Below, piece by piece: positions 5,293 to 60,930 of a stretch of DNA of 64,000 bases (the first letter of the stretch is position 1; each line of letters begins with the position of its first letter). The notes under the pieces are model-generated. The model had not been told where the DNA came from. It ran no database searches and saw only the letters and a list, made by a program, of their open reading frames with translations. The position numbers and the translations under genes are program-made. The stretch comes from Dermatophagoides farinae (lineage: Eukaryota > Arthropoda > Arachnida > Sarcoptiformes > Pyroglyphidae): assembly GCF_024713945.1 (NCBI RefSeq), contig NW_027461520.1, positions 62,001 through 126,000 on the forward strand, in the 5' to 3' direction.

Positions 5293-5954
5293 ATGGATTT
5301 GCCGAGTATTTCTTTAGTTTTATACAACATAAGCAAGCGTAGCAATTGGGGGACTATAATACGTAGTGCTGCAGCCCACAACATTCACGATATTTTTGTT
5401 GTTGGCAGCAAGAAATTAAAAACATTTGGAAATCAAGTAAGTAAGCTGTTAAAATAAATTATAGGGAACTATAAAACAAGTGAGATTTCATTATTGGGAT
5501 AGTCTCATTGATTTAAAAACTTTTTTTGAAAATAATGACGTCACTTTGGTGGGAATTGAAATCATGGACGAGTCGATTTCAGTGTTAGACTACGATTTTA
5601 GTACCAAGAAAAAAATTAGTTTTATGCTAGGCAACGAAGGACTTGGACTAAATGACAAACAAAAAAAATTATGTGATGAGTTTATATACATACCTCAGTT
5701 TAGCAACGCAACAGCCTCGCTGAATGTCGCGATGGCTGCAACTATTATTTTTCATCAATGGGCAAGTAAGTTTCACAAATTCAAATATTTTAGTTCAAAA
5801 TAACCAAAAAGAATGTCAAAAACAACAAAACAAATACGTTATCACACCATTTAACGAAATTAGTTCGATTGATTTGTCTCAGAAACATGTGTTTCCACAA
5901 AAAAAACACATTGAAATTACAACTCCAAGTTTATTTTTTGAAACAGAACAATAA
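5293..5954 (+). CDS. SpoU-family (SPOUT) RNA 2'-O-methyltransferase
   Basis: This RNA ribose methyltransferase of the TrmH/SpoU group would use SAM on tRNA or rRNA. The gene is assembled from three exons: 5293-5436, 5465-5765 and 5794-5954, joined across two introns of exactly 28 nt with GTAAGT donors and TAG acceptors. Exon 1 carries motif 1, SKRSNWGTIIRSAAAHNIHDIF. Exon 2 carries motif 2, FMLGNEGLGL, and motif 3, IYIPQFSNATASLNVAMAATI, which together form the trefoil-knot SAM site. Exon 3 is a polar tail. The total is 201 residues, a bare catalytic domain plus tail with no RNA-binding extension. The substrate cannot be told from sequence. The split frames and two identical intron lengths make the model strong. 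Confidence 0.85.
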
Positions 5955-6008
5955 AACAACGAGATTTGATCAGGTTACAAAAGCATAATTGGTTTATCTA
6001 CTGCGTAA

Positions 6009-8210
6009 ATGATAAAATACAAGAAAATACTTTATTATTTCTCGATAATCAACTATGTTAGAGCGTTTCAAAAATCACTAACAACATTTCCGCCAATCGA
6101 CACTCGAAAAGCAATTTGGGATGATTACCCTGCCTATGCTCTTTTGCAAAAACCGGCTGGACCTACGCCAGAAATAATCATACTTGATAAGAAAGGCAGA
6201 CACAACAGCCGGCATAAAGGTGCTACGCCTCCTATCAAAATTCCTTCAGCAGATCCAGTTTTCGACATAGTCGTTAATCCTGACTATGTGCCCGAACCAT
6301 TTCCTGCTCCATACCCATTTCCACTAGAAGTTGACCCCGACGATCCGTCTGAACCATTAAAAGCAAATGATACAGATAAAATTCAATATGTTTCCAAAGA
6401 TTTTATTGAAAAAGAACCTGTTATATGGGAATGTCCGACAGATAATTTTAAGTTGGTCAACAACACATGTGTCGAAAGAAACACGGAACTCGCGGTGCTT
6501 GGTTGCAAAGAAGGGTGGTTCATGGACGGTTCTATTTGTATAGCTCATGAAACCTCCAGTATTGAGTACGTCTGTCCAGAAGATTTTGAAGAAGCTACTA
6601 ATGGAACATGTACGAGCATTACATACACGCCTAAACAAATGATTTGTCCTGACGGGTTTGACATATCTATAGAAGGATGTAAAAAATACATTGAAAGCGA
6701 ACCTGTTGAAATTTGCCATGACGGTGTTTTAGAAGACAAACAATGTAGGCATACAACTAAACTTAAGCCTTCCTCACACTGTCCAGACGGTTTTTTACTG
6801 AATGAAGCTAACAATTTTTGCTTTAGACATTCGGTACAAACACCGGAGCAGGTTTGCTCGAGAGGCAATCTCAATCCAACGGAAATGACATGTACTTCAA
6901 TACAAGAAACTTCTTCTGAAACTACTTGCCCGCCTAACTATCAAAGATTCGGTAATTATTGTCAAAAAACCGTTAAAACAATGCCAATTAGATCTTGTGA
7001 AATAGGATTATTGAATCCAGAAGGACTTTGTGAAAAACTTGTAAGTGCTGGTCCACCAGAAGTAGTATGTCCAACTAATACTCTTTTTGACGAAGTAAGC
7101 TTGAATTGCGCTCCCGTACTGCAAAACAATGGTAAACATAACCACAAAATAAGAAAAATGAATCATACTCCAACAATTAAAGCTTTGATTACTTGTCCAC
7201 CTAACAGCGAATTTATAACTATGGATTGTGTAATGCGTGAGTTTTTCGAGCCTTTAATTTCGTGCCCAATGGGATTTGAACTCATAGAATCAAGTTGCTC
7301 GATGACTGAATCAATAGCAATGACGCATAGCTGCGCGCCAGGATATGTATTAAATAGACAAAATAAATGCCAAAAAATCATTGAAGAGCCTTCTAAGTTG
7401 TTGTGTCCGGAAGGCTTCAACTTAGGGTTAGACAACTTATGCAAAAAAATAGAAAAAATGGATGCGAACATTTTTTGCCCGTTGAATTCGAAAATATTAA
7501 CAAACATTGTGGGACAACCAGTGACGTGTATTATCGACGAATACTCGTCTCCAGATCTGAAATGCATAGTCCCTGGCACTTCTTTAGAAATGACAAATCG
7601 TGGCTATAAGTGTTTGTCTGCGATTTTGGAAGCTCCTCGCTTCATATGTCCAGCAGGATTTACTGAATTCGATCAAAAATGTGTACAATACAACACGACA
7701 GAACATATTAAAGCATGTCCTCGTGGGTTTACTTTATTATTCAACACTTGTGTTATGGAGTTACGAGAACAAGCAGTTTACGTTTGCCCTGAAGATTTCT
7801 ATTTATCATCTTCGAGCAACACTTGCATTAAAGAAACACGCTTAGAACCTATCATGAAGTGCAGAGACGGATTTGAGTATGACCATAAAGTAAAAGTGTG
7901 TTATAGACTTCACACGTACTTTGACTTTGATAAAGTAAGGTCAGAAGTAACTCCGGCAGAAGCACCAGTAGAACGTGTAAAAGATTTGCACATAGATCCT
8001 CCAGCGAGTGCAGCTCCCGAGAACAAGGGTGTGAATGTGATCGAAACACCGGTAATACCTCAACCGCAGCTAACAATAGTTCAGCAGCCAGTTGTTATAC
8101 CTCAGCCAGCGATAATTTTACCGCAGCAAGCACCAGTCCCACCGGCACCGGTGATACGAGTTCCGTATGCTATGCCTCAACCAGTGCCTACGTTAAAAAA
8201 ATCTCCATAA
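6009..8210 (+). CDS. Oocyst-wall-protein-like secreted cysteine-rich protein
   Basis: A predicted secreted structural protein of 733 residues resembling the COWP/OWP family of apicomplexan oocyst walls. The N-terminus is a short hydrophobic signal-like stretch ending near Ala19. A proline-rich linker (about 90-115) follows, and then about 20 consecutive units from residue 140 to 640. Each unit has one pair of cysteines 10-13 residues apart, often as CPxGF...C, and repeats every 26-30 residues, giving about 40 cysteines. In known COWPs such cysteines are thought to crosslink the wall. The last 90 residues are rich in Pro, Gln and Val (repeats like VIPQP) and lack Cys. It is a single exon. A second, shorter relative lies at 16571-17968. 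The family call rests on the repeat pattern, not an alignment. Confidence 0.75.
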   Translation: MIKYKKILYYFSIINYVRAFQKSLTTFPPIDTRKAIWDDYPAYALLQKPAGPTPEIIILDKKGRHNSRHKGATPPIKIPSADPVFDIVVNPDYVPEPFPAPYPFPLEVDPDDPSEPLKANDTDKIQYVSKDFIEKEPVIWECPTDNFKLVNNTCVERNTELAVLGCKEGWFMDGSICIAHETSSIEYVCPEDFEEATNGTCTSITYTPKQMICPDGFDISIEGCKKYIESEPVEICHDGVLEDKQCRHTTKLKPSSHCPDGFLLNEANNFCFRHSVQTPEQVCSRGNLNPTEMTCTSIQETSSETTCPPNYQRFGNYCQKTVKTMPIRSCEIGLLNPEGLCEKLVSAGPPEVVCPTNTLFDEVSLNCAPVLQNNGKHNHKIRKMNHTPTIKALITCPPNSEFITMDCVMREFFEPLISCPMGFELIESSCSMTESIAMTHSCAPGYVLNRQNKCQKIIEEPSKLLCPEGFNLGLDNLCKKIEKMDANIFCPLNSKILTNIVGQPVTCIIDEYSSPDLKCIVPGTSLEMTNRGYKCLSAILEAPRFICPAGFTEFDQKCVQYNTTEHIKACPRGFTLLFNTCVMELREQAVYVCPEDFYLSSSSNTCIKETRLEPIMKCRDGFEYDHKVKVCYRLHTYFDFDKVRSEVTPAEAPVERVKDLHIDPPASAAPENKGVNVIETPVIPQPQLTIVQQPVVIPQPAIILPQQAPVPPAPVIRVPYAMPQPVPTLKKSP

Positions 8211-8267: not shown

Positions 8268-8688
8268 TTAGTTAATTGAAAACGCTTCGCAGTTAATGCA
8301 GACATAAGCGATTTTGATCGAGTCTAAAGAGCATTTTTCTGGGAGCAACGAGTAAATAGCTCCTTTTTCACCGCAAGATTCGCAAACATAGTTGGGGTCT
8401 CTTGGCAGAGATTTGTCATAGATCCATCCTTTGTACACAAAGCTCTTGTAGTCTTCTCTAAAAAAATTCAACGAATAAAAAACCTACCTGCTTCGATTTT
8501 GAAAATAAATTGTTCTTACAACGCTAGTTGTCTTATTCAGCTCGTCGGGGGGGAATAGTTTTCTGCACACAAGACAACGAAGAACTAAACTATTAGTGTT
8601 AGGGTCTTCAACGCTGTGCAAGCAGTTGCCACTAAAAGTTTTAAGAGTGTGAAACGTACCATAAATGACAAAAACTAATATCACTCAT
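8268..8688 (-). CDS. RPB9: RNA polymerase II subunit RPB9
   Basis: A small zinc-ribbon subunit of RNA polymerase II involved in fidelity and elongation. The gene was rebuilt from three minus-strand exons, 8660-8688, 8488-8631 and 8268-8457, separated by introns of 28 nt (8632-8659) and 30 nt (8458-8487). The first exon codes only MSDISFCHL and splits a Cys codon. The joined N-terminal ribbon then reads FCHLCGNCLHSVEDPNT followed by LRCLVC, exactly the RPB9 layout. The middle has DPNY, and the C-terminal ribbon has CESCG with a distal CINC. The total is 120 residues against about 122 in yeast. The second ribbon lacks the RSADE-type acidic hairpin, so TFIIS and RPC11 are excluded. It converges on the oocyst-wall-like gene. 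Confidence 0.88.
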
Positions 8689-8808: not shown

Positions 8809-9732
8809 TTAGAGTAAATAGGGAATCATGCATTTTCGATTTCTGAAAAAAATAAAACTTCTTAAATAACTTACGGAGGGTAATTAGCGAACTCTTTTTT
8901 GTATAAGCAATGTTTTTTTTTAGCCCAAATGTACATTTGGACAACGCTGATAATTGTGAAAAGCCAGGCGTTTGTAGTATTGATGATCAAAGAAAAAATA
9001 ATCCAGCTCAAGGCTTCCCAAAAATAATTCGCACAACTGACGTAGTCAAAACCGAATTTGTAAGGTATGCCTCGCGTCGTAGATTCAGGTTTTCTGAGTT
9101 TTTTGAGCACGAGATGAGTTAAAAAGTTCATGATTTCCGTGCTCAGAAAAGCAATGAACAGAATTACCGCGATATATTTGTGATTTTCCAAATAGCAAGT
9201 ATAGTTTTTGCTGAACAGCTGGTACGAAATCATTACTCCACAAAGAATCCAATAGTGGAAACAGTTAATAGGAAGTCTTTTGAAGGGCATGCTACTTTTG
9301 CTAAAACGATGAACGAAAACAGATTCAAATTCACGCTTGATGAAATGAATCATAATGCAAAGATAACCCAGTTTCTGGATGAAGGTTAACGGTCTGTTGA
9401 TGTTAATGAGTCTTGCAAAAGGGAAAATCAATATAGGTCCTAGATATTCGATGATGAATACAAGTCTCCAACTGACCTGCATACCTAGATCTTTGATTAA
9501 AAGGCTCGTGTTATCAGTGACATTTTGCGATTGGAGTTCATTGTCGACCAGAGTTTTTCCGTTTTTAAAGGTCCAACGTTGTCTTTGAATAGGTAAACCC
9601 GCTACAGTTAGGTTAAATCAGGGACTTACTCAAGTGTTCATACGCTAATTTCAAGTCTAACAAACAAGCATTGTCAGCCAATTCAATTACTTTTTCTTTT
9701 TTAGTAGAACGATCTTTACAAGTGATTTGCAT
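8809..9732 (-). CDS. TECR: Very-long-chain trans-2,3-enoyl-CoA reductase (TECR/TSC13)
   Basis: This ER membrane enzyme performs the last step of each round of very-long-chain fatty acid elongation, reducing the trans-2 double bond with NADPH. Three minus-strand exons, 9630-9732, 8875-9601 and 8809-8842, are joined by introns of 28 nt (9602-9629) and 32 nt (8843-8874), giving 287 residues (308 in human). Exon 1 and early exon 2 form the ubiquitin-like N-terminal domain, with QRQRWTFKNGKTL and then LIKDLG. The core has VFIIEYLGP and HFIKREFESVFVHRFSKSSMP, typical of the steroid 5-alpha-reductase family. The C-terminal part has GIPYKFGFDYVSCANYFWE and QMYIWAKKKH. The tiny last exon supplies the classic end after EFANYPP, reading NRKCMIPYLL. 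Several hydrophobic helices are present. Confidence 0.92.
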
Positions 9733-14785: not shown

Positions 14786-14959
14786 AAATTATGGAGTAGA
14801 TTACTTCTTATAGATTAAAATCTTATAAGCTACAATTTATATTGAACAAAATTCAAATTAATAATTTGTTTGAAATTGATTATTTATTTCATTTTCCAAA
14901 ACTCTTATAGGATAATGCTAAAAAATCTTATATACCATAGAGATTTGTTAAGTAAAATA

Positions 14960-15217
14960 TTAGAATTTGCTCTTGAGTAGGTTTTCACACTGATTCATCC
15001 ATAGAAAGTTATCGATTCCTTTTTTCACATATTCCCTACCATCATATAAAGATACCCAGCTAGATGTAATATACAACCCATTCACCGCACAAATTAGATT
15101 TCTGAAAAACACTGAATTGTTTGGATTAATTGTTTTGCTTAGATCAAAATATGACGTAGGTAACACATACACACATACATTAAAAAAAGTGTATAAGAAT
15201 TTTATTGTTTTAAACAC
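14960..15217 (-). CDS. Doubtful small minus-strand frame
   Basis: An open frame of 85 codons starting only with GTG. The C-terminal half (NLICAVNGLYITSSWVSLYD and on to the end) has protein-like composition. It could be the last exon of a small gene, because a TTTTCAG acceptor-like site precedes it, but I could not find a matching ATG exon with a normal short intron. It overlaps the poorly defined 5' end of the plus-strand gene that follows. Treat it as unproven. Confidence 0.2.
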   Translation of the reverse strand: MFKTIKFLYTFFNVCVYVLPTSYFDLSKTINPNNSVFFRNLICAVNGLYITSSWVSLYDGREYVKKGIDNFLWMNQCENLLKSKF

Positions 15218-15846
15218 CAGTCAAAAATGGAAAAAATTGCTGAACACGTGTGAAAGAATAAATTGTTTTTACAACAAAAAAATATCAAGAAATATCCGGT
15301 GCGCACTTTATTTCGACGAAAATTCAAAACAGGAAATACTCAACAATAAAGAATTGCAGAATCGAATCAGTTCGTTGTTATTCCTGTACTACAAAGCGAT
15401 TTACACAAATATCATCAATCAGTCAATAAAAACGCCAGTATTTCTGAATAGTCGGCAGCAAATATACATCAAACAATATCATAAATATTATGATTTGGTA
15501 AGTTAGTCAAAAAAATATTTTTTAGGTTTCTACGGTGTATTTTCCAACAACAAAAGAAAGAACTTATGCTCTTAACATATTAGAAAACTTAGCAAAAAAT
15601 TTCAACGCGAAAGCAAATAAAAAAGCCATTATGAATATAAATCTATCTCCACCTTTTGGATTTAAGCGTGCCCTTGAGGTTGATAGTCAAACCCTGTGGG
15701 TAATAGTACAGGTTATCGAAAATATAGACGATTTTTTAATAGCATTGCTTTGTACATTATATGAATTTGTGAGAATTGCTCTGGAAGAAGCTTGGACTAA
15801 TGAGTTTCAATATGCTTTTCAGTCAATGCGAAAATTAGTATTTTAA
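15151..15846 (+). CDS. Unknown protein, two or three exons, start uncertain
   Basis: The coding core is clear: a frame open from about 15221 to 15497, a 28-nt GTAAGT...TTTAG intron at 15498-15525, then a frame to the stop at 15846. The joined product is about 200 residues with no recognised domain. It contains KWKKLLNTCERINCFY near the N-terminus and a helical C-terminus (LWVIVQVIENIDDFLIALL). The upstream frame holds no ATG. The best model I can build uses ATGAC at 15151-15155 spliced by a 65-nt intron (15156-15220, GTAGGT...CCAG), giving MTQKWKKLL. That intron is longer than any other here, so the start is tentative. The frame is also open back to 15117. Confidence 0.5.
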
Positions 15847-16570: not shown

Positions 16571-17968
16571 ATGACTAACGTATATTCATTAATTAGTGGA
16601 TTATTATTTATCTTAAATATACACGCTGCGATTCATAATGATCAAAATATAATTCTCAATGCAATCACGCTTTGCAAAGACTCTCACAAGAGATGTACTA
16701 ATTATTATTATGATCTAGAAAAAAAAAAATGTATCTACATCAATTACAAGAACACAAAAAAACCGTTAACGATTCTTATCAATCGTTCAAACAAAAACCT
16801 TAATAAACAACATTATAATTCTTCAGATTATCTAGAAACTATTGATGCAAAACAATTGGTATGTAAACATTACACCGGCATCACTGATTTACCCCCTTTT
16901 ATAGCTAACGCAGACGGTGTTTGCATAAGTGCTAGAATGTACAAGCCAAGAGTTCATCTTGAATGCCCAAAAGGATATACAGAGCATATCAAGCATGACA
17001 GAACCGGAACTAATCTTTCTCCACCCAGCTACATGTGTTTCAAGGATATATTCAGACAAATTTCTGATTCTAACGCTCAATCTTTTGAAAATGACGAACA
17101 AAAAGAAGATATATTTTTTTCTCCATTATCTTTTGTTTATCATACTTATTTAACTGAGTTTTCATCTAATTTGATAGCGTTTTTTGAGTCTTTCAGTAGC
17201 CTACAAGCTGAAACAAATGATGATAATATAAATTTTTTAAGAGATATAATTAGATCTGGAAAAAACGCCAAAAAAATCAACGGGCCTGGGCTGAATATAA
17301 ATTCTAAAAACATTTGTGAAGCTCCATACGAGCTCACGACTAAGAATAATATAACATATTGTAAAACTAGAGTCACAGTTGATCCTATATTAAGCCAGGC
17401 TTCTTGTAGAAGTGCTTGGAAATGGTCTGAACAATATAAACAATGCATGAAAATATCAATTGATTTACCAAAAGAGAAATACTGTAATATTTCAGGACAT
17501 TTAGATGAAGCTGTAATCAATGGTTACTACAAAGTAATTAATAGAGATGTCAACTTTTATAACGAAGAGACGAAATCGTGTTTTGTATTAAAAGACTACA
17601 CTAATCAATTAGCATGTGATGAAGGATACGTATTAACTTACCACAAAAAAAATTTAGTATGTGCACAAATTTATATGCTAGACCCAGAGTATTCATGCGA
17701 GGGATTAGACGGTTTTGGATTGTAAGTAAAACTATTGATGAATTTGTGTAGACAATTTGAAAAGAATGAAGCTTATTGTGTATTCAAAAATGAAACAAAA
17801 CAAGTAGATAAATTTTATAGTAATATCCCAGATTCGGAAAATGTTCTTAGTCGACATATTTCTAAAAAAATATTATTAAATAATTTATCAAGCGAATCGG
17901 ATAAATATAATAAATTAGTCACTGTATCTAGGAGAATAGTAGGTAAATTAGTTGAAGAAGCATTTTAG
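16571..17968 (+). CDS. Second secreted cysteine-rich, oocyst-wall-like protein
   Basis: Two exons, 16571-17721 and 17752-17968, are joined over a 30-nt intron and give 455 residues. The N-terminus is a signal peptide (hydrophobic core ISGLLFILNIHAA). Cysteines again come in pairs with intervening aromatic and glycine residues (ECPKGYTEH...MCF, ICEAPYELTTKNNITYC, ASCRSAWKWSEQYKQC, ACDEGYVLTYHKKNLVC), the same style as the protein at 6009-8210. The units are fewer and less regular, and a Cys-free stretch of about 110 residues interrupts them. The C-terminal exon is Cys-poor and polar. It is likely a wall or surface protein of a resistant stage. Relationship to COWP is inferred from pattern. Confidence 0.6.
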
Positions 17969-23221: not shown

Positions 23222-23933
23222 ATGTCAAGTTTAGAAACAAAGAAAATCACCGTAAAAGTCCTTTTAGTGTATGTACGCATATTTAAATAATTTTAGTGGT
23301 TTGGATGCTGCTGGAAAATCTACCATACTATATAGGTATTTAAATAACACGATTTATACCGGAATCCCCACTCTGGGATTTGATGTGAAAGTTGTGCAAA
23401 AAGGTGTGTATGTTTTAAATTAATTTTATTTCAGTTTGACTCTTGAACTTTGGGATCTTGGAGGTCAATTCGAATTTAGAAAAAACTGGATTACGGCAAT
23501 AAGCAACGTTTTATGTCTTTACTGGGTCGTAGATATTATTGATATTAAACGTTTTGACCTTAGTCTGTCTGAACTAACGCGGTTATTTGATGTCGTCCAA
23601 CATCCAGATATGAGAGTCGTGCTTTTATTAAACAAATGTAATGAATGTGAAGAGTATGAAGAAAACTTAGCAGTATTTACTAGTAAAATTAAGAGTATAA
23701 AATTTCAAGATATACACATTGAAACACTCAATGCGTTACGTGATCCAGAAGCTAAAATAAGCATTAAGATTGACAAACATGTAATTGAATTGGTTAAAAA
23801 GCGGTATAAATGTTTGAACGAATACAACACAAATAATTTTATTCCGAATGAAGTTGACAATGTACTGAGTGAAGCAGAACTGAAGGATTCATCTTTTGTA
23901 CTTGAAAAAAATAGATCAACTTTTTTATTCTAA
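23222..23933 (+). CDS. ARF-like (ARL) small GTPase
   Basis: Three exons, 23222-23268, 23297-23407 and 23435-23933, are joined over introns of 28 and 27 nt and give 218 residues. The P-loop VGLDAAGKST is created only by splicing exon 1 to 2. The switch I threonine lies in GIPTLGFDV, switch II is WDLGGQFEFRKNW (created at the exon 2/3 join), and the guanine motif is NKCN instead of NKxD. The first Met is followed by Ser, not Gly, so N-myristoylation is unlikely. The C-terminal 45 residues extend beyond the G domain. It is an ARL of uncertain type; ARL10/ARL8-like features (NAG/GLDxxGKST, I/V-P-T-x-GF) are possible. Confidence 0.8.
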
Positions 23934-23953: not shown

Positions 23954-24317
23954 ATGAACTATAGTTTATTAGTAGATCTTATTTTAACATATAATGTTGT
24001 TAGTTCAAATTTTTTAAGGCCAGTTTCAGATATTTTAGCACCACCATACAATGTAATTAATTTTCATGGTACAGTGCAAGTGATCAACCCGTAAGTGTAG
24101 CGAGAGTTATTTCAGGCATATTGCAGAAAAATATAAAAATCAAAAAGAAGAGGAAATAGAAGCTAATCTGGATGCTAAAGTGATGGCAGTGTATAATAAC
24201 TTGCAACAAAAAAATATACTAGCAGACTATGATAAATTAAACAGTTCATCCAGCGATGACTCAAATTCTAATATAAAGTCGAAAATCAAAAACTTTAAAA
24301 ATAAAATATTGCATTAA
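23954..24317 (+). CDS. Small unknown two-exon protein
   Basis: Neither exon appears as a long frame by itself. Exons 23954-24090 and 24116-24317 join in frame over a 25-nt intron with GTAAGT and TTTCAG ends, giving 112 residues. The N-terminus is mildly hydrophobic (MNYSLLVDLILTYNVVSSNF) and could be a weak signal or anchor. The C-terminal half is charged, Lys/Glu/Asn-rich and helical (KYKNQKEEEIEANLDAKV). No family recognised. Support comes from the clean splice and uninterrupted joint frame. Confidence 0.5.
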
Positions 24318-33955: not shown

Positions 33956-34026
33956 TCCATTGTAGTCTAGTGGCAGGATATATGGCTCTCACCCATACGA
34001 CCCGGGTTCGATTCCCGGCAGTGGAA
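33956..34026 (+). tRNA. tRNA-Glu (CTC)
   Basis: Acceptor strands TCCATTG and CAGTGGA; the anticodon stem TATGG/CCATA holds CTCTCAC, anticodon CTC. The T arm is CCGGG-TTCGATT-CCCGG. A T4 terminator follows. It lies about 60 bases upstream of the CCT3 start codon on the same strand. Confidence 0.92.
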
Positions 34027-35727: not shown

Positions 35728-36522
35728 TTAGTTATTTTATAATTTTTTCTTATAAACATTTGTAGAGGTTGTATCTAGTATATTAAGTTGCTTAATTTGA
35801 TAGCATAATAAAATATATCTTAGCTACAATTATCATCCATTATAAAGAAATATGTAGAATTAGGAAAAAATATTATATAAGATTTAGATGAATATAATTA
35901 CATAAACAATAAAAAACAAACAGGCCTCATTGAGTTACGCTGCAAGCGTCTATCCAATTTACTCAGTATCGATGCAAAGCATACATATAATAAGCTGCAA
36001 AAAGTCAGCCTATAGCATTTAAGCTTTTTTCTTTCAAAAACATATACGAGGACCTTGCCCACAGTAAAAAAAACATATTTGCCCTTAGAACTGCGTATGG
36101 ATATAAGTTTTTTATCATTTTTGTTAGCAGAATATTTAGTAGTAAGATTTCGGAATTAATGTGTATTTAAGTAGTCTGAATTGAGTAACAATAAACAATT
36201 GTTGCTAGAATCTGACTCATTCATCGTGCCCTCCATATGTTTCAGGAACTACACCTATATGATGCAGACGACTTTTCTACTTTATGGCAAAATTAGTCAC
36301 CTAATTTTAATTTCTGTTTTTTCGGCATCTCAGACCTTCCCTCTTGTATTTATCAACAAATCTGCCGACTAATACAACACACTCTAGCTATAAATCACAT
36401 TAATGGCATAAAAGCAAAATTTAATAAAATTTATTAGTTCAAATGTTGTTTTGTCTCTCAGTCAGATAGAGAATGCGTTTCTTTGGTGCAGTAAATTAAC
36501 TCGTTTATCATAAATTAACTGA
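35728..36522. other. Longest intergenic gap, with a relatively GC-rich core
   Basis: This 795-base stretch has no credible protein gene; the one 63-codon frame at 36181-36372 lacks ATG and looks like noise. Between about 35915 and 36380 the base composition is visibly less AT-rich than both flanks. The first part shows two small hairpins, ACGCT-GCA-AGCGT and ATGC-AAA-GCAT, and a T-run near 36025. I recognise no known snRNA, SRP, RNase P or snoRNA motif. An unrecognised non-coding RNA is possible. Confidence 0.4.
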
Positions 36523-37997: not shown

Positions 37998-38960
37998 ATG
38001 AAATGGTTATATCAGATAGAAAAAATTTTCGTGTCTAAATCCATTAAACGAATCCTAAACAGATGTAAGTGAAACAATTCACATAATTTAGATCCGTTTA
38101 TTGAAGAACTAAATAAGTATCTCAATCGGTATAGCTTGCCTGTCTTATATTATTATAACGAATCAGATAAAAATTTTATTGATAAAATTCCATTTTGTGA
38201 AAAATTATCGCTGAAAGCCGGGCAACGGAGAGCTCTTGATTGTTTTCTTCGCATTAACGTTGATCAATCAGTATTTTTTAGAAGATTGCAAGAAGAGGCT
38301 AATTTATTTTTTGATTTAAATGCTTTTTCTATTTTAGATTTCAATGCTATTAAAAATAAAAAGACAAGTTTTATTTCATCTAACTTTACGTCTGAACTAA
38401 ATATACAAACACCAGTCGAAAAAAAATACGAAATCGAAATTTCTATTGAAAAACTCTCAGGAAATACTTTTGAGTTGTTAACTAATATAAGTATTATTAG
38501 CACTTGTCCTATAAGCAAGCTACTCAGTATTTTTTTTCCTGTTCTTACAAACGAGTCATCATTTCAAAATTACGAAATTCATTATTTTGACAAATATGGT
38601 TCTTGTCTTGATGACTTATTTTCCAACAAGACTGTTATCGATTTATTGTTGCTGAAAATAAAATACATCTCGGTTGGAGTTATAATATTACGTTTATTCT
38701 GGAAAAAATTAACTTTCACGTCTGATTTAAACATAAAGGATTTAGAAAAAAATTTGTACAAAATATCAGTCAAGAATCCAAGATCGCTTTGTTTACTATG
38801 TAAGCAAAACTTAGCTTATTATAAAATAGATGGAAGTCTCTTTTTATTGGAAGAAGCATGCTTGATTTGCAATAAATGTTATGTTATGTTTGTTTCAGTA
38901 ATTGACGACGATATTATAATTACAAATCTAGTCAATGAAACTGAAACTGATTCATATTAG
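37998..38960 (+). CDS. Unknown protein with a C-terminal four-cysteine zinc-finger-like end
   Basis: Exons 37998-38064 and 38092-38960 join over a 27-nt intron. Exon 1 supplies the ATG that the long frame lacks (MKWLYQIEKIFVSK). The product has 311 residues. Most of it is an unrecognised mixed alpha/beta region. Near the C-terminus CLLCKQNLAYYKIDGSLFLL is followed by ACLICNKC, a CxxC...CxxC zinc-ribbon layout slightly like the end of SNAPC3, but the rest does not support that family. Its stop lies five bases from the stop of the opposite gene. Confidence 0.55.
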
Positions 38961-38964: not shown

Positions 38965-40669
38965 TTATTTGTGCCAATCTCTTGCTTGAATTTTGTTTTG
39001 ATGAATAACTCGCATATCTTCAGTCCAAGCCGTCATATTATTATTAGATTCGCTAAACATTAAAAATTTCTTAAGTCCGTCAATAAATATAGCTTTACTA
39101 CTTATTGCTCTCTTACAGCATTGTTCGACTAATCTTGTCCATGCACGCTTGGTTAAAAATTCGTTACGATTAAGTAACCCTGCAACATTTGATTTTTTAA
39201 GCGATTTTTCGAATCTGATCATCCAATCGTAACATTCGGTTTCACTTCTAGTGAAAAAATCGTAAACCTTGCCATCTCTTGTGTATATTGTAAAGCAACA
39301 CGTAAGCAAAAGTTTAGGAAGTTCGGTCAAAAGTCCTTTGGGTTTGATATAGTTGGTACTTTCTAATTTAGAACTATCTGCACTCATGGAAGACGGTGTG
39401 TCAATACCAGATTGTCTATATATGTACTTCATGTATCCTAACATATTGCTGTCACAACCATACGAAATAGCAGCAATGTCAGTAAATTTAAGAATAGTTG
39501 AAGCAGTTCCTGCGAGTTGCTTTTGCCACCCTAATATGCCAGATTTTTCATCTAGTATGAGTAACCTTGATTCATATTTGTGTAATCCTGTTGAAGGATG
39601 CCATCGAACTCTATAAATTAAATAAGAACTTTTAGCAAGCTTAATTTTGGTAATAGTTTTAACGTCTGTAATAGCGCTAGGCGTGAGCACAATTGAAGTG
39701 TCTTCTCGTTTATTTTTTGTAGTGTCTTTTTTAACCACGAATTTTGAAGGTTCATAAGTGGTTTTACACAAGTTCAGTTGATTTCTTAGATTTTGCAATT
39801 CCATTTCATAATTTTTTTTCATTTCTTCTAACTGAGCTTCCAACGTTTTATAACGTGTTTTATATAATTCTAAAGCTTTTTGATCATTAGAAAGCAGCTG
39901 TATTTGCGCAATTGCAAAATCCAGTTGAGTTTGTCGTTCTCTCAGGGCTTCTATTAAAGATATTTTTTCTTCACCAAGTTGCAGTGTGTGATGTGCAAGT
40001 ATATCATATCTATTTTGAAATTCAATCAATCTGTTAGATAAATCGGTAATAGCACCTTCTTTTTGTCTCGCATTTCGTTCCACTTCACTTAAAATCTGCT
40101 TATATTTGTGTATCTTTTCAGCTGCATTGATGGAATTTTGAATTTCGTGGTCGCGCGCCAATTCGGCTTCTGTATTCGCTGTTTTTAAAGTTCCAATATG
40201 ATCCACTAGTCCTTCATGTTTTTCCGATAATTTTTTATAATCGTCTTGAAGTTTTTCATGTTCTTTCGCTAATAGATTGTAAGCCTTTCTAGTAACATAA
40301 TTTCCACTTTTTGACGGATCAACTTCTTGAATTTGTTGCAACTCTTCTCTCAAAGCTTCAACTTCTTGCTGCATCAATTTATTAGCGCCTGCGAATTTTG
40401 ATGCCCATTTAGTAAGTCTAGTCTTTTCATCTTTTAACTCCGACAAACCTAAAATAATATCTCAAATTACTTACTTGTGGGTCCACAACTATTGGGGTTT
40501 AAGCCTCGTAATTCTTTCAGTCTTTCAATTTTAACTTTCGCTGGCACAGAATTTTCATTGTGCTCGATTAAATCTCTTTTCTAGCATAAATAAAAAATAT
40601 GAAAAAATAACTTACTAATCTATTATGAGCAGTTATTAAAGCTTCATATTCATAGTTTGAATCCACCAT
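38965..40669 (-). CDS. Coiled-coil protein with a C-terminal PH-like domain
   Basis: Three minus-strand exons, 40616-40669, 40475-40580 and 38965-40448, with introns of 35 nt (40581-40615) and 26 nt (40449-40474), give 547 residues. The first ATG yields MVDSNYEYEALITAHNRL. Residues about 60-290 are a near-continuous coiled coil (QQEVEALREELQQIQ; ALRERQTQLDFAIAQIQLL; LEEMKKNYEMELQNLRNQL). Residues about 330-475 look like a split PH domain (IKLAKSSYLIYRVRWHPSTG ... LTCCFTIYTRDGKVYDFFTRS and ECYDWMIRFEKSL), ending with the usual Trp in the last helix. Such a combination suits a membrane-tethering or cytoskeletal protein binding phosphoinositides. No orthologue recognised. Confidence 0.65.
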
Positions 40670-49659: not shown

Positions 49660-52577
49660 ATGCCGGAAGATAAATATTTTCCAATTGAGGTATTAATTTC
49701 ATATATCAGCGATGCTAAGTTTCAAGAGTTTGCCATAAACAATTTATTGTCGCGTACCACGACTGAATGGGTAGATTTGTCTACGCAACTTGAAAAAATG
49801 TAAGTTGCAATTTGCCAGCTATTTTTAGTGAAATGTTAGCTAATAGCATCCAGGAAAATTCGGATGTTCGGCAGTCTTTATGTTTGCTTATTAGTATAAT
49901 TTATTATCACATTGAGTTAAATGATTCATCACTGGAATACGCATTAAAAGCAGAAGATGCATTGTTTTCTATATTGAATTCAATTTATGATTCAATCCCC
50001 CCAAAAAGAAAAGTTAACCTGTCTGTAAATTTGTTGGGGAACTCTATGAAGCCTTATGTCAATTGTTTAATAACTACAGCAATAGGACTCTATTTAAAAA
50101 ATTATACCGACAATAAGGTCGTATCAGACTGGGTTGAACTATTGTTATCGTTTGAATCTCCTGCAACTAATCTTTTGGTACACGGAATAGTGATCGAAAG
50201 TTCAAATCTGTCGATCATAGAAAATATTCAACAAAAGTCAATTAATCTCGCATTACTTAAGGAGCTTAGTATACGGCCTTTTTTGATCTGCAAGTCTATT
50301 TCAGTTTGCAAAAATGTGTCTAAAATCGTAATGAACGAACTAATCTCTTATTATAATTCAGAAGGAAGTACTGATTTTTCTAGATTTGAAAAAGAAGGTT
50401 ATTATATGATAATGTTAGCTTTACGAACTAGAGATTGTTCTCAAATTGTAAATGTTTTGAAGATAGCACAAAAGCTGAATTTAGCTTATTTCTACTGGTT
50501 GTGCGATATAGTCAATTGTCACTCTACACTGTCGATGATTGATAAGATTTTAGAAACTTTGTCTCTCAACCCAGAAGAAAATAAAGCAATAAAATATTTG
50601 GATGGTTCTATTAAAGCGAAGCACCTGCATGATTTTTACGAAAAGCATTACAAAACATCGATAAAGTTGTATGAAACAATCAAAGTAAATATTGGGTTGA
50701 AACCGATTATATTAATTACTACAACAATTATTGCATACTGTTTCAGTCAAAGAAGTACTAAAAACGATTCGTTTTTGAGAAACAATTTAACCTGGTTCGT
50801 CAAACCTTTGCAGTGGAATAAATATTCAGTAGTCGCAAGTTTGGGTATTATTAATCAAACTCATTCCGATATAGGTATCAAAGTATTGAGTAGCAATTTA
50901 CCCAACCAGCCAGGATGGAAAGTCGGACAACCATACGATGATGCAGGTGGCCTTTATGGTTTGGGGTTACTTCAAGCGGATAAGCCTGCAGACGATATTA
51001 AAAAATATCTAAGAGAACAGTTAAGCGCTGCCATCGACACCATGTCTGGAAATACAAATAATGAATTATTGACAGGAGCTAGTATGGGTTGTAGTCTAGC
51101 TTTTATTGCAACTAATGATGTTGATATTACCAATCTATTGGAAGCTATCTTGTTGTATGATGTGCCACTACCTTCTGAGGCTGCATGTCTTGGTATGGGT
51201 ATTGTCAACTATAGTAAGTTTGATACGGCGTTAATAAAAAAACTACTTGCTTTTTCGAGTCATACTCAACACGAAAAAATTTTGAGAAGCATTGGTGTAG
51301 CTATATCTATGCTTGTGGCTCATTCGAACGAAAACTGTTTGGAAGTCGTTAATGAAATGATTTCACACGAGAACGAATTTATTCGAATGGGTGGTGTACT
51401 TTCCTTAGGTACTGCTTATTTCCAAAATACTAATAACGATATAATTGCTCGTTTACTGAAACTGATTATTGGTGACGCCAGCGATGAAATGAAACATATG
51501 GCGGTCATGGCCCTTTGCTTCGTTTATCTCGGTACAAGCGAATTTGTTAATGCATTAGAAACCTTCAAAATGCTAATTGATTCTTTTAATTACAGAATTA
51601 GATACGCTGCTGCTTCCGCAATAGGATTAATAGCGGCTGGAACGGGTGATAGAAATGCTTTAGAATTATTACTACTTGTTATCAACGATTCTCATGAGCT
51701 TGTTCGTCAGGCAGCATTAATAAGTCTTGGTATGATTTATATGGGTATATCTGACAGAATGATTTTATATCAACGCAAGGAAAATACTCCCACTATTGAT
51801 ATTGGCGACATTTCAGTAACTAAATTGCCTATTTACCCTACGCCTACTGAAGTACGAGATTTGCTTGTAACGTTAGCCTGCAACTCATATGACGATGTAA
51901 TGGTTCGAGTAGGAGCGTTGTATGGTCTTGGATTTTTGACTGCCAGCGGTTCGAATGCCACCCTTGCAACAGTTAGACGTGTTATCGAAAAGAACAACGA
52001 AACAAATCCAGGAATGAAAGGATTGTTAGAAAGTCAAAAATGGGTTGGTTCATTCATTTCACCAGTAAGGGCTATTGGGTTCATTCTATACACTCAATTT
52101 TGGTATTGGTATCCATTTATCTTGAATATTACGCTTTCATTCGTTCCTCAAGCTTTGATTGCTGTAACAGAAGACGGAATGGCTCCTGAAGATTTCAACT
52201 TACGTCTAAATTGTAAAGAGCATGACAACAGCTACCTTTCTGAGTACAAAGAGGCGACCAACAAACCACTTGCTTCTATTGCTAAATCGCTGTTAACCGC
52301 AGCTAAGAGAGCAGGTATAATAATAAAGGATATCAATAATCTTCAGTTGAAAACCGCACCTAAGAACCAACCTGTTTCTGCAAAAACTGATAAGAAAGAA
52401 GAACAAATAGAATCTGAAGTAGAAGCAGATATTTCGGTCGTAAGGAACTGCAGCAGACTCACAACAATTGAAAGAGCATTAGTAATTAACGATTTTTCAC
52501 AAGAAAAATATGAACCTTTTACTGATATCGACTTAAGCTGCGGCTTAATTTTTCTAAAGAAAAAAGCCAACAATTAA
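49660..52577 (+). CDS. RPN2: RPN2/PSMD1, 26S proteasome regulatory subunit
   Basis: A large scaffold of the proteasome lid-base region. Exons 49660-49799 and 49829-52577 are joined by a 29-nt intron, giving 962 residues (945-990 in other species). Exon 1 begins MPEDKYFPIEVLISYISD. The centre is a run of proteasome/cyclosome repeats of 35-40 residues with alternating small residues: YDDAGGLYGLGLLQAD, LPSEAACLGMGIVNY, FIRMGGVLSLGTAYF, YRIRYAAASAIGLIAAGTG and LVRQAALISLGMIYMG. AAGTG and ETQHEKI-like THQHEKI patterns favour RPN2 over RPN1. The C-terminal tail is charged. Confidence 0.92.
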
Positions 52578-52612: not shown

Positions 52613-53093
52613 CTATTCAAGAAACCTTTTTGTAAGTACTTTTGTAATCCATTTGTAAATAGATGTTTGGCAGGAGTTATCAAATTTTTCTGATATTGCT
52701 ATTGGCTCGTAATACACCGAATAATCGAGGTCTAAAAAAATGCAAACTTTGTTAACGAATTCGTAAGAAGCAGCAGTGTGCTGGTTAATGTAGTTATTAT
52801 TTATGTCCGTTTTTTTATCAGAAATTATACTTTCTATTGAGGTTGCGTTCTTATATATTTGAAACGTAAAACACTGTGTGAGATTTAAAAATTTTAGTTT
52901 ATTTGTTGGAACCCTTGTTCTTAATTTGTTAATGTAATAATATTCATATTCGTCTATTCTTATAGAGTAAATTCCTCCAAAGAAGTTCACATTGTCTTCC
53001 TCAATAAAAATGAGAGGAATTTGCCTAAAAGTGATCAATAATTTGTACTTACAACTCTTTGGGCAGACTGTAATATCTTAGTTCTACATACAT
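52613..53093 (-). CDS. Unknown two-exon protein
   Basis: Minus-strand exons 53053-53093 (MYVELRYYSLPKE) and 52613-53024, joined by a 28-nt GTAAGT...TTTAG intron, give 150 residues. The ATG at 53038 lies inside the intron and is not the start. The sequence is Tyr/Asn/Ile-rich with no signal or membrane segment (IPLIFIEEDNVNFFGGIYSI). I considered GINS subunits because of the size and N-terminal style but found no decisive motif. Converges with RPN2. Confidence 0.55.
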
Positions 53094-53307: not shown

Positions 53308-56107
53308 ATGACGGGTGAATTCAAAAGAGAAAAAAAATCGTATGATCCAGACGATATTTGGGGTCCGGCACCCGTTGATTACATTCCTGGTAAAGGAAGA
53401 GGTGCTACAGCCTTGACCAGTGGTGTCAGCCGAAAAGACGCCACTTTAGCTCAAGAGTTGGGCAAAGCAAAAGCAGCAGAGTTTGACATTCATCAAGACG
53501 CTTCAAAAAGTACTATAAATCCGACGGAACAAGCGATAAAAGAAACAATCAAAAACCCTGTTGCGTTTGAGTTTTATAACGAAATTAAAAAAATAGAAGA
53601 AAAAAGAAATGCTAAACGTTTAAGAGTGGACCAAAGCAAAAGTAAAGCTCAGCAGCCGCTAGATGCAGAGGATCTTCAAACAAATATTATAGAACCTAGT
53701 GTTGAAACCATTGCAAAAACAGAAATTGACTGGGAGGATATAAAACCTGTAGTTTCTCAATTGAACCATACAAGCAAGAAAGCAGAGCGCGTGCTCCCAA
53801 TATTATCGTCTCATAAAAAATTCGTAAACGAAAAGAAAAATCTTAGGAACGCGGTTGACTTTAGTATTGCGATTGATTTAGAAGAAGATGTTGCTATAAA
53901 AAATTACGAAATGAATGAGTCTTGCTTGCGATCTGCGTTAGATGACAATTCAAAAAAAGCGCACAATTCCGTGTTGCCAGTGAGACTCGAGAAGATAGAA
54001 AGCAATCTGGATGATCACTTAAAAGATTACTCTAAAATTTGCAAAACATTCAAGGGGTTACTAAAGAACGCGGAGACGAACGCAAATTTGTGGATAAATT
54101 ACGCTTTATTCTTGATTAAATGCAAAAAGCTTAAGAACGCAAAAGAAGTAATTGCAAATGGCTGTTTGAAGTGTCGTTATTCCGACGAGATTTGGCTCAT
54201 TGCTGCCGAAATATTCAACGATGAAACTAAAGAAGACTGGATAAAAACTGGGCTCAAGTATAACAAAGAAAGTGCCAAACTTTGGCATAGGCTTCTAGAT
54301 TTGGTGGCACAAAAAAATAAGCCAAAACTGGAACAGCTCGAACTGGCGAACAACGCAACGATTCACGTGAAAAATGACGAAGGATTGTGGCTTAAGTACA
54401 TTGAGCTTGAGCCAGATTTAACAAAACCCATTATATTTAAACAAGCGTTGAAGTATTTTCCTAACAATTCGCAGATTTGGCTATTGTACATAAATTCAAA
54501 AGACGACAAATCTAAATTAAAACTGATTAACAAAGCGTTGCATTATTGTGCAAAGTACGTTGAGTTCTGGGTTGTCGCTGCTGCAGCGAGCATTGAGTTC
54601 TACAAAAACACGACAAAAGTGGTAGAAAAAGCTTTTCGGTACATGAACGTAGGGGTGAATTTCATTTCAGAACTTGTTGATAGCGTTTTTACAGTTTGAA
54701 GACAAAATTGCAGCTGAAATACTTTATTATATGCTCGGTAACTACGTTTTATCCTCGATCGATATTTATAACATCGAAGAAAATCTGCTGAAACTGAAGC
54801 ATCAAGGTTTAAATTTAGCTTTAGCAGTAGTCGTTTATTTCTTGTTGTTAACAAAGTTTTCTGAAAAAAAAGTTTTGAAGCTTGTCAAAAAGTATATGTC
54901 GTTAGATATAATGGACGTTATAAAAGATAAAAATAAAAATGAAACTTATAACGCGTTCATTAACAGTTGGCAAACACACAAAGAATTTCTTTTTGAGTAT
55001 TTGCTTTTGTATCACTTATTCAACAACTTGGATTCTTCTGCAATGTGGGAGTTATGTTTAGAGGCAATACTGAATAATCAATTAGTTTTATCGACGAGAG
55101 AGATAGCAGAGTTAATTGACAATTTAAATGAATCGTATTTGAGCAATGCAACACTTGTTGATTTGCTTGTCAGTTATCTAATTTTCACTAACTACGATGT
55201 GCAGCAAGAAAAACTGCGTAAAGTTTTGGTGTATCCGCCCGATGTTTTATCTCCTTATCATTTTTCCATTTTGAAATATCAATCGCACTTCAAACAGCAA
55301 GAGTGCCGTGATAACGCTTTAGTATACGTGTCAAACTTAAACAAAAATTTATCTAATTATACATATTCAAGTAACGATAATCAGTTGGCGTTTTTTTTCG
55401 CGTGTTTTGATCTGATGCTAGAGCAAAATTCAGACGAAAAACCAAACGGAAAGCAACAACTAGATTTATTGAAAGAGACGTATTCAAAACACGGTCAAAT
55501 TTTCTTGTCTCGGTTATTATCGATTTGCTGGACAGTAAACTACACACATGCAGCTTTAACCAGAGTGTATTACCAAAATATTTTTCACTTTGCAGACAAA
55601 AGTGACTTCGTTTTATTTGAGTGTTTGATTTTGAAAAAAGAAATCAAAAAAAGCGAATCTGCTATAGACAAGTTTATTTTAATGTTTCCTTACAATAAAA
55701 GACTGAGTTGGTTCAAAGTTTTGTACTGTAACATAAGCTGTGACGACGAAAATACAGACTATGATTTTTATGAGCTTTTGGCTAGCGCTGCGTTACATAG
55801 AAAAAAAAAGCAGTATGCACTTGCGAAAAAAAAACTAGACCGAGCTAGTCAGCTGGAATTACAAAATTACGACTTAGAAGTTGAAAATTATCTTCTGTAT
55901 AAAGTTCAGTTTGAGTACTGGGCGTCAAAAAAAGCAGTTGATAAGATGAAAGTGCTGAGCAGTTTCTGCAAGCGTTTGGAGAAATCGTTGATTGTTAAGA
56001 CCCACTCTTGTTTCAAAACATTTTGGACAAGTACGAATTTGCTAGAAAACAATTTCAGCAGCAGGATGCAGCAGTATTTAGTGCTCACTGGTCAAACGAA
56101 CGCATGA
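53308..56107 (+). CDS. PRPF6: PRP6/PRPF6, U5 snRNP splicing factor
   Basis: A HAT-repeat scaffold of the U4/U6.U5 tri-snRNP. Two overlapping frames join as 53308-54648 and 54671-56107 through an apparent 22-nt intron (GTAGGG...TTTCAG), giving 925 residues, close to human 941. The N-terminus carries the PRP1-N domain with DDIWGPAPVDYIPGKGRGATAL. HAT repeats start near residue 250 (LWINYALFLIKCKKLKNAKEV; EIWLIAAEIF; LWHRLLDLVAQKN) and continue across the join (YMN then NLLIAFLQFED). The intron is shorter than any other here and its donor is weak, so a frameshift or sequencing error is the alternative. Repeats resume at the right spacing, supporting one gene. Confidence 0.85.
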
Positions 56108-56112: not shown

Positions 56113-56750
56113 TTAAATGTGGACGTTCTTAGCTTCTTCCTTCATGTAGACAATATAGTTGTTCAGCCTGGTTAGAGCGACCTCACACACCGTTCTCTCT
56201 TCAGCTAAAATACAAGCAATAACGTTTGCTTCTTCAATCGTAGCTTTGGTACAAGATGTCATATCTTTTGAAACCGACAAAACTTTGTCTTTTGTAGTGG
56301 AAACGAGATATTTTCCATCGATTGTGAGATCGTAACTATCTTCGTCAGCCACCTGGGCTTCGACGAGAATTTCATTGTCAACGTGGCTAATTAATTTAAA
56401 CTGAGAAGGAAAGACCGATAAAATCCGTGTGTTGCTTCTGAAAGCTTCGCTATGCTGTTTAAGTAAACTGATAATTTTGGCGGTTTCGTCTTGCAAATGG
56501 CCTAACAGTCTGAATAGTCTGTTGTAGACGTCCTGGCAATTTTTGATTGTTTCAACAGACGTGCCCAATTCTTCTCTGAAATCTGGCTAGGAGAAATTCG
56601 CTGAAATTAACTTACAATGTGGCGAACTTGGATGACATTTTCAGCTGACAATTGCACAAAAGGCGATAAGGATTGATCAACGAATTTTTGTAAGTAAGAA
56701 AAGTAAATATTTTTCAAATTGTAGTTATATTCTTCGACCTGTGAGGCCAT
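56113..56750 (-). CDS. Unknown helical protein, two exons
   Basis: Minus-strand exons 56616-56750 and 56113-56586, with a 29-nt intron, give 202 residues beginning MASQVEEYNYNLKNIY. The long frame starts with a TTG, so the upstream ATG exon is the better start. The sequence is mostly helical (LRLLGHLQDETAKII), with a beta-rich middle (FKLISHVDNEILVEAQVAD). No family recognised. Convergent with PRP6, with five bases between stops. Confidence 0.55.
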
Positions 56751-59466: not shown

Positions 59467-59725
59467 TAAATAAACAAACCTAAGTAAAAATAACTTTTTC
59501 TCGCATATAGTTTAACTCGCAACTATTTGAAAATAGAGCTCACTTATTCATGTTCGCTAAAATGTTATTTGAACAATTAATTTAGACGCCTAATTAAATT
59601 GATTAAATAATTTATGAAATTAAAATAGTTTTCCTCAAATTATTTGATTATTTAATCAAATATTTTGTTTCGACCTAGGTTAGCGTGACTAAACTTTTAA
59701 ATAGCAAATATTTTAAGATCAGACT

Positions 59726-60930
59726 ATGGTATCTGGATCTAAGCCTGGTCAGGTAGTTAGATTTGCTTTAGAAAACATTAGACAAGATTTTTCAGGTAAC
59801 GTTCATAAGTAGGGTGAGAAAACTAATATATTTAGAAAAATTAAGAGCAAAGATGTAAAACACTTTTCTATTGACCTATGCCAAGAAAAAATTATAAAAA
59901 TACTTTTAGACCTAGAACCTACACTGTAAGTTTCAGTACTATATGAATTAGTAGGTTGATAAAATTATTAACGCTAAACAAACAATGGTTTGTAATGATA
60001 TACGATACATATTTAAAAGCACTAGAGAAAATGATAAAATCAAAGTTTGCAGAGCATTTTGACTATTTAAAACCTCGTTTTTGCAAAATGATTGTGAGTC
60101 GATCAAAAATCAACAAACAAGGCTTTATTCTAAAATTAAAATTAAACTTAGCAGTAACAAATAAAGCTTATCCGTACCACGTGTGTCCGTTGTACTTTAT
60201 ATCAAACAATAAATATACAGATGAATATTCGTCTAATATTTACCTAATTAAGGTTGTATCAAACGAAGATAGAAAAGTCATTAAAATTTGTAAAAGTTAT
60301 TCGAACGATGAGACCTATACTGTCAGCTGTTTAGATTTAATAAGTCCTATTGAGGCACGCATAGGAGATTCTCTAGAACTTTTAATAGACTTAATTTACG
60401 ATAACTACACTCTTGATACCGAAAAACTGCACTTTTGCCAAGTGCCATTCGCTTCAGTAACAGAGTTCAACAAAGCTTTGAATAATTTAAAAAACGAGAA
60501 TCAGTTCGCAGGCATACTCAAAAATAAATATTGGCATAAAATCATATCGACTTACTTAGAAAATGAAACTTTTCTAGAAAAGAAAACAATAAATCTGTAT
60601 GCCAAATGCAACGAAGAGTTTCAATATTTATTTACACCGCAATTTATTCCTGTCAAACAATGTAAATCAATTCAGTACGACAAAAAAATCTACACTAAAT
60701 TTTTGTGCAACGAACTTGGACCAGTAAAAAACTCAAGAAGCAATTTCGGCTTCAAGATAAAAGTAAAAAGTTTGTTAGACAGAGCCCAAAATTTACCTTT
60801 AAAAAGACTTGGAACAACTATTGATAAAAATACTGTATTAGAAGTTTTTCAACGCGATTACGTCGAATTTGTTTTGGATAACTGTCCAGAGAAACCTACA
60901 GTAGAACCTAACAATCTAGATCTATCATAA
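59726..60930 (+). CDS. Unknown three-exon protein
   Basis: Exons 59726-59808, 59836-59925 and 59952-60930 are joined over introns of 27 and 26 nt and give 383 residues. The first two exons have no long frame of their own; the joint frame reads MVSGSKPGQVVRFALENIRQ and on. The second intron ends TAGTAG, so using the second TAG would drop one residue without changing frame. The protein is Lys/Asn/Tyr-rich, with no signal peptide or membrane span (HFDYLKPRFCKMIVSRSKIN). No family recognised. Confidence 0.6.

Follow-up and report, generated by a model that had tools for sequence, protein, structure and literature searches.

Introns of about 28 nucleotides in contigs filed as Dermatophagoides farinae that probably belong to an unrecognised alveolate

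This stretch of the Dermatophagoides farinae assembly raises the question of whether the segments of about 28 nucleotides (nt) that interrupt its reading frames are spliceosomal introns and, if so, in whose genome they lie. The window, that is the whole stretch of 64,000 nt analysed, corresponds to positions 62001-126000 of contig C17, in an assembly of 62,435,336 bases and 22 contigs (here C1 to C22). We hold it to be quite probable that the segments are real spliceosomal introns of about 28 nt and that their owner is an alveolate not recognised so far, most likely from the Apicomplexa and perhaps a gregarine, whose nuclear DNA was co-assembled with that of the mite to the extent of 3.6 megabases (Mb) and filed as D. 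farinae. The data show the excess of the introns over decoys, their lengths and consensus, the domains restored by joining, U1 and U4 genes on the same set of contigs and a mixed assembly; removal of the introns from the transcripts, the branch site, the affiliation of the organism and its life in or with the mite are inferred.

Predicted short introns of the window

A rebuild of the window genes reproduced the totals claimed by a first-pass annotation, 22 introns in 15 genes. These introns show a median of 28 nt and a range of 22-40 nt: one intron each of 22, 25, 26, 32, 35 and 40 nt, three of 27, eight of 28, three of 29 and two of 30 nt. Most length classes of the annotation agree with this distribution, except that it claimed two introns of 26, seven of 28, two of 29 and two of 40 nt. 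One discrepancy is traceable to the intron starting at 59926, which measures 26 or 29 nt depending on the 3' site, and the second 40-nt intron has no counterpart among the 22 rebuilt ones. Fifteen of the 22 begin with GTAAGT, 18 end in TAG and four in CAG, which matches the borders described before (mostly GTAAGT and TAG, rarely CAG). Twenty introns come from the gene model and those at 8843 and 23269 were seen by eye. In all 22, translation through a retained intron meets a stop earlier than the spliced frame does.

Over 174 kilobases (kb), the gene model with GT..AG borders shows 16 introns of 26-31 nt, versus 0-6 for 15 decoy border pairs (0, 0, 1, 1, 1, 2, 2, 2, 2, 2, 3, 3, 4, 4 and 6), and 18 introns of 22-36 nt, versus 1-10 for the decoys. 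In the same 174 kb and with the same 15 pairs, neither the introns of 37-120 nt (28 versus 17-36) nor the total of all lengths (50 versus 27-51) are above the decoys.

The joins can be tested by a domain or structure match in five of the 15 genes: SpoU, ARL, TECR, RPB9 and RPN2. The gene encoding a SpoU/TrmH-type RNA methyltransferase (5293-5954) contains intron 1 at 5437..5464 (+ strand, 28 nt; gene model, frame), and joining of its exons raises the Pfam score from 60.0 to 90.6 bits, with SpoU_methylase matched over positions 2-141 of 142 versus 51-141 for the downstream exon alone. Its intron 2 (5766..5793, +, 28 nt) is located just past the Pfam domain, and retention gives a stop at amino acid (aa) 160 of 201. 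In the ARL GTPase gene (23222-23933), intron 1 (23269..23296, +, 28 nt) lies directly before the P-loop GLDAAGKST and intron 2 (23408..23434, +, 27 nt) was found by the gene model; the spliced protein matches the Arf profile over 6-158, versus 58-159 without the upstream exons, and the score rises from 47.2 to 106.4 bits. The TECR-like gene (8809-9732) has intron 1 at 9602..9629 (- strand, 28 nt; gene model, frame) and intron 2 at 8843..8874 (-, 32 nt), followed by a final exon encoding NRKCMIPYLL, with which the Steroid_dh match ends at position 150 of 150 instead of 139 and the profile is covered to its final position (99.3 to 116.6 bits). The RPB9-like gene (8268-8688) contains intron 1 (8632..8659, -, 28 nt; gene model) within the N-terminal zinc ribbon and intron 2 (8458..8487, -, 30 nt), and the spliced protein aligns to RPB9 of the PDB over residues 4-112, crossing both introns (E 3.9e-6). 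In the RPN2-like proteasome gene (49660-52577), the intron at 49800..49828 (+, 29 nt) allows the RPN2_N match to start at profile position 14, versus 52 unspliced. RPB9, ARL and TECR are also the genes for which the first-pass annotation described known motifs restored by joining.

The consensus was derived from 42 introns: the 22 of the window and 20 from another 120 kb, made up of twelve 10-kb pieces covering C11-C21, the contigs among which C17 is found. This sample (184 of 3,594 kb, about 5%) contains 105 gene models. The mode is 28 nt (11 introns), the median 29 nt, and 32 of the 42 measure 25-30 nt. The donor is GTANGT: all 42 have A at +3 as well as G at +5, and 39 have T at +6. The acceptor is TAG in 36, CAG in five and AAG in one, preceded by a T-rich stretch from -4 to -6. 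The invariant donor positions are partly a product of candidate selection. The 42 introns are the 59 put out by a re-estimated gene model, which weights donor, acceptor and length, minus 19 dropped (11 outside 22-42 nt and eight inside) plus the two found by eye; the eight in-range drops (15838, 19892 and 29757 in the window, five elsewhere) had poor borders, joined separate genes or left the frame open either way. When these eight are restored, G at +5 is present in 46/50, 35/50 measure 25-30 nt, and the modes 28 and 29 are tied with 11 introns each. The branch-point consensus that the first-pass annotation proposed to look for in the aligned introns is not clear among the 42. Adenine peaks at -12 (24/42) and -11 (22/42), a maximum with P 0.0086 by plain shuffle (13.8 expected) and P 0.064 with the T-rich last six bases fixed (15.8 expected); given this stricter shuffle, the data do no more than suggest a branch site around -11/-12.

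The same set of contigs contains genes for spliceosomal RNAs: a U1 small nuclear RNA (snRNA) gene on C18, whose 5' end begins AAACUUACCUG and includes ACUUACCUG, complementary to CAG/GUAAGU, and a U4 snRNA gene on C11. The GT..AG borders, which the model requires, and the complementarity between donor and U1 are features of U2-type introns, in agreement with the spliceosomal type and the length near 28 nt proposed before. A 1,948-aa protein on locus L029 was not used as spliceosome evidence, Brr2 and ASCC3 being both possible. The introns would most likely be recognised by intron definition on a minimal substrate: the 5' site would be chosen by pairing of U1, and then U6, with the GUANGU donor, U2 would pick a loosely defined branch adenosine from an A-rich segment at about -11 to -13, counted from the end of the intron, and the 3' UAG would follow a short run of U. 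A branch adenosine near -12 of a 28-nt intron would place donor and branch about 16 nt apart, with little space for separately bound factors.

Spacing counts give weak evidence for the introns. GTAAGT..YAG pairs 20-35 nt apart number 28 in the window versus nine in the reversed control, and 25 of 42 GTAAGT sites are followed by a YAG at a distance of 20-36 nt, versus 8 of 43; for two looser donor patterns the window counts are 68 versus 68 and 54 versus 38. It is because of these looser patterns, and of the cobiont and mite samples with their reversed controls given below, that the count is considered weak. Pattern counts over the whole assembly were set aside, since the places reported sat on mite contigs.

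A second genome in the assembly and its probable affiliation

Contigs C1-C10 sum 58,827,282 bases, and C11-C21, which are unplaced and hold the window contig, sum 3,593,788 bases. The tetranucleotide distance to the window is 0.05-0.09 for the 12 ten-kb loci covering all of C11-C21, 0.16-0.22 for seven ten-kb loci on seven of C1-C10 (all except C4, C6 and C8), and 0.13-0.14 for two 3-kb loci of C3 and C10. DNA of the window type differs from the mite chromosomes in composition and in the density of coding sequence. C11-C21 have their own proteasome genes (11 loci by our own grouping, the mite set having 14) and their own CCT/Cpn60 genes (eight loci, subunits unspecified). They probably constitute a separate, gene-dense genome which is not that of the mite and whose owner is here called the cobiont. 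The first-pass annotation described the use of such introns as genome-wide, and this can be true of C11-C21 alone (42 introns sampled from about 5% of the sequence, mode 28), the rest of the assembly being mite. In 70 kb of mite sequence, 2 of 15 GTAAGT sites are paired with YAG (68 of 157 in the reversed control), as compared with 25 of 42 in the window and 29 of 56 in the 120-kb cobiont sample.

The remaining contig, C22, is mitochondrial, and its last 4.3 kb, read with the invertebrate mitochondrial code, contain three genes, two of them on the opposite strand to the first, which we take to be nad5 and, on the opposite strand, nad2 and cytb. In length, its 14,266 bp equal the D. farinae mitochondrial DNA described in PMC4223567. 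C10, with 3,348,946 bp, is equal to the smallest D. farinae pseudochromosome of GCA_024713945.1, a 62.43-Mb assembly in 21 scaffolds from which microbial sequence was removed by BLAST against microbial RefSeq at 1e-50 (PMC11074847). C1 measures 9,170,000 bp here versus 9,172,953 bp published, and the totals are 62,435,336 versus 62,428,314 (PMC11074847); with these differences, the sequence is GCA_024713945.1 or a close version of it. The main text of the assembly paper does not contain the word 'Apicomplexa' (PMC11074847).

All four AP2 hits of the assembly are on C11-C21 (C11, C14, C16 and C19), three of them above the cut-off, and none is on C1-C10. The single alveolin (IMCp) hit of the assembly, of 34 bits, is on C14, and this lone hit is no proof. 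Both AP2 and alveolin domains are known from other alveolates too. C17 contains a fusion of 6-phosphogluconolactonase and G6PD in a single open frame (L025:2162-4426, - strand), presumably of the Plasmodium-type order. C14 and C16 begin with TTTAGGG-type repeats, as does C11 in a noisy form, among the 20 ends of ten contigs, not all of which are readable. A ranking by PDB similarity was tried for placement and is uninformative: the proteasome alpha-2 subunit shows 235 bits to the best chains and 221 bits to 5fmg, which we take to be Plasmodium, and 5fmg is the last of the 17 matches listed for a beta subunit, so that Plasmodium is not favoured. A dicyemid origin was prompted by the tiny introns and the 62-Mb assembly, dicyemids being animals with a mean intron of about 26 nt and a genome near 67 Mb, and was dropped after the mixed assembly and the AP2 and alveolin hits were found.

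The cobiont is very likely an alveolate, likely an apicomplexan, and perhaps a gregarine; this last affiliation is suggested by the kind of host, the compact genome and introns like those of Porospora. It would live in or with the mite. Less likely, yet a serious possibility, is that tiny introns arose independently in an apicomplexan outside the gregarines, such as an adeleid or one of Cryptosporidium-like type, or in some other alveolate, a proposal that overlaps with the preferred one, where the subgroup is left open. It would account for the missing of Porospora's conserved adenine in the cobiont and for a 733-aa protein at 6009-8207 (+) with regularly spaced cysteine motifs (CPxGF...C) and no Pfam or NCBIfam match, which we presume to resemble Cryptosporidium-type oocyst wall proteins. 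An intron mode identical to that of Porospora, a number of introns per intron-bearing gene close to that found there (1.5 versus 1.8; PMC9250747), the arthropod host, and a gregarine 18S obtained from the mite Caparinia and set aside by its authors (PMC6321676) argue instead for a gregarine. Among the papers listed by searches of the open-access literature, outside of which are most subscription journals, preprints and supplements, none was found that describes gregarines or other apicomplexans from Dermatophagoides, and a study that surveyed animal assemblies for apicomplexan contamination mentions neither mites nor Dermatophagoides in its main text (PMC5244568).

Counter-evidence and remaining features of the window

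Several results weigh against real introns in an alveolate cobiont, in addition to the stricter branch-adenine shuffle, the uninformative PDB ranking, the lone alveolin hit and the length differences from the published assembly given above. In the 120-kb cobiont sample, the number of GTAAGT..YAG sites is not above the reversed control (29/56 versus 30/76). The frame-retention test is partly circular, since the gene model puts introns at frame breaks, and introns a few codons past the start, such as that at 36538, are avoidable through a downstream start codon. Matches of U2 and U6 are found on mite chromosomes only, with the best candidates scored and a cobiont assembly that is maybe incomplete, and the SF1-HH domain match is on mite C1 only; no conclusion is drawn from these absences, since the contigs may not cover the whole genome and a divergent RNA may be too weak a match for the search. 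18S was not found on the cobiont contigs in a search with a 16-base motif. The AP2 and alveolin models each ring in one of 14 control genomes, and one locus of C17 is full of frame breaks, so assembly indels could mimic some introns. Our confidence was lowered slightly, and remains good, because the stricter shuffle weakens the branch adenine and because of these rings in control genomes.

It is very improbable that the introns are artefacts, whether indels of the assembly or coding sequence mistaken for introns. Frame-broken stretches do occur on the same contigs (L024, and L020 with 48% coverage by open reading frames), and the circularity of the retention test favours this explanation as well. 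However, the 26-31 nt class is not produced by decoy borders, a common donor and a TAG end are unexpected from indels, frameshifts were allowed to compete in the gene model, and domains are gained on joining. The first version of this model used codon usage, GT..AG borders and a flat length prior of 12-120 nt, with frameshifts permitted as competitor, and it already chose segments of 22-30 nt, mostly ended by GTAAGT..TAG, beside longer ones that fuse genes. Under the first settings genes were split and few introns found; a higher gene cost recovered the introns, but neighbours were fused, with introns of 45-120 nt judged false. L024 (C17:30001-40000) has 12% of its length in open reading frames of at least 150 aa, one gene spread over frames, which we take to be ThiF/MOCS3-like, and three 244-bp direct repeats at 3815-4587; its state is probably due to uncorrected long-read indels or decay. 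Also very improbable is that C11-C21 are true mite DNA, such as a gene-dense region left unplaced or the product of a large horizontal transfer: the contigs were released in a mite assembly and passed its microbial filter, but their composition and coding density differ, they hold a second set of 11 proteasome and eight CCT/Cpn60 loci besides the mite's own, the AP2 and alveolin hits are confined to them, and they have their own U1 and U4 and TTTAGGG-type contig starts.

The other ten intron-bearing genes of the window contain the remaining 13 introns. An unnamed gene at 14915-15846, without Pfam match, shows introns at 14977..15004 and 15498..15525 (both +, 28 nt; gene model, frame), and a Cys-containing gene at 16571-17968, also without Pfam match, one at 17722..17751 (+, 30 nt), whose retention gives a stop at aa 384 of 455. 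The intron of the small gene 23954-24317 (24091..24115, +, 25 nt) leaves an intact 112-aa frame from one of four ATGs tried. Near the start of gene 36523-37753, the intron at 36538..36577 (+, 40 nt; gene model, frame) is weak, as a downstream start could bypass it. In gene 37998-38960, the re-estimated model places an intron at 38065..38091 (+, 27 nt), whereas earlier unweighted runs picked 66 nt. Gene 38965-40669, without Pfam match, contains intron 1 at 40581..40615 (-, 35 nt; gene model, frame) and intron 2 at 40449..40474 (-, 26 nt), instead of which one unweighted run picked 14 nt. The gene model and frame also give an intron at 53025..53052 (-, 28 nt) in gene 52613-53093, one at 54649..54670 (+, 22 nt) in the PRP6-like gene 53308-56107, whose upstream exon matches PRP1_N and HAT, and one at 56587..56615 (-, 29 nt) in gene 56113-56750, which has no Pfam match. 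Gene 59726-60930 shows intron 1 at 59809..59835 (+, 27 nt; gene model, frame) and intron 2 at 59926..59954 (+, 29 nt), with an alternative 3' site at 59951 (26 nt) and the frame open either way.

The window is gene-dense and uses the standard code: 40 gene models span at least 240 bases each and 87% is coding according to the gene model. Its content is ordinary eukaryotic housekeeping, including CCT gamma, uL1, an eIF2-beta/eIF5-type domain, dynamin, tubulin, the RPN2-like and PRP6-like proteins and a Myb protein. It also contains seven tRNA genes within about 1 kb (32987-34026, both strands), two of them lysine tRNAs of equal score, a nuclear RNase P RNA candidate at 36160-36381 (-; 31.4 bits, cut-off 28), and a 1,351-aa C2-domain protein at 25683-29738 (-) with a weak ferlin C-terminal match.

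Genome size and known short-intron systems

Under the assumption that eukaryotes have 14 proteasome and eight CCT genes, and counting these two families, 19 of 22 markers are present in the cobiont (86%, exact interval 65-97%). Scaled from 3.59 Mb, the genome size is estimated at about 4.2 Mb (3.7-5.5), with the proviso that one Cpn60 locus could be mitochondrial HSP60. At 1.6 kb (window) to 1.75 kb (184-kb sample) per gene, the assembled contigs would hold roughly 2,000 genes and the complete genome up to about 2,600; among published low values, Babesia microti has a genome of 6.5 Mb (PMC5082761) and Ophryocystis elektroscirrha 2,591 protein-coding genes (PMC10210345). We give even chances to the fuller statement that an apicomplexan not yet described, which may be a gregarine, has most of its nuclear genome in the D. 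farinae assembly, and that this genome, of about 4 Mb and 2,000-2,600 genes, is the smallest seen so far in any apicomplexan, with 28-nt introns and without Porospora's conserved branch adenine. If the sequence is near-complete, the lower bound of apicomplexan genome size would move well under that of B. microti. The wider consequence is that 3.6 Mb (about 6%) of the published assembly is probably not mite: the genes on C11-C21 could be mistaken for genes of the mite or for candidate allergens, and mite cultures could harbour such an organism.

The introns were first described as among the shortest known, which is overstated: introns measure 15-16 nt in Stentor coeruleus (PMC9505925), 16-17 nt in mikrocytids and 18-21 nt in a nucleomorph (PMC10245619), as in B. 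microti (PMC5082761), and a 28-nt mode is already published for the gregarine Porospora (PMC9250747). B. microti is, as the cobiont probably is, an apicomplexan with very short introns and a very small genome of about 6.5 Mb, but its introns of 18-21 nt differ from those of about 28 nt found here (PMC5082761). S. coeruleus shares a narrow length class and a branch consensus that is not strong; unlike the cobiont, it is a freshwater ciliate whose branch adenine is nearly fixed in position (PMC9505925). Mikrocytids also combine tiny introns with a reduced parasite genome, whereas their introns are uniform and highly conserved in sequence and they belong to Rhizaria (PMC10245619).

The closest lengths are those of the gregarine Porospora gigantea A and B, whose introns have a median of 28 nt [27-30] and a mode of 28 nt, with 71-72% at 25-30 nt (PMC9250747), so that mode and prevailing range coincide with those of the cobiont. 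Introns per intron-bearing gene number 1.8 in Porospora and 1.5 in the window (22/15), and the coding fraction is 84% versus about 87% (PMC9250747). In contrast, the adenine strongly conserved 6 bp upstream of the acceptor in Porospora is missing from the cobiont, in which A is found at -6, -7 and -8 in 2, 18 and 13 of 42 introns; GC is 54% in Porospora versus 33% here, and its genome of 8.8-9.0 Mb compares with 3.6 Mb assembled here (PMC9250747). The 28-nt intron class is thus already known from Porospora and the cobiont adds another case. If the cobiont is a gregarine, the 28-nt length would be common to two genomes that differ strongly in base composition, and the conserved adenine would not; in tiny introns, constraint on length could then be told apart more easily from constraint on sequence.

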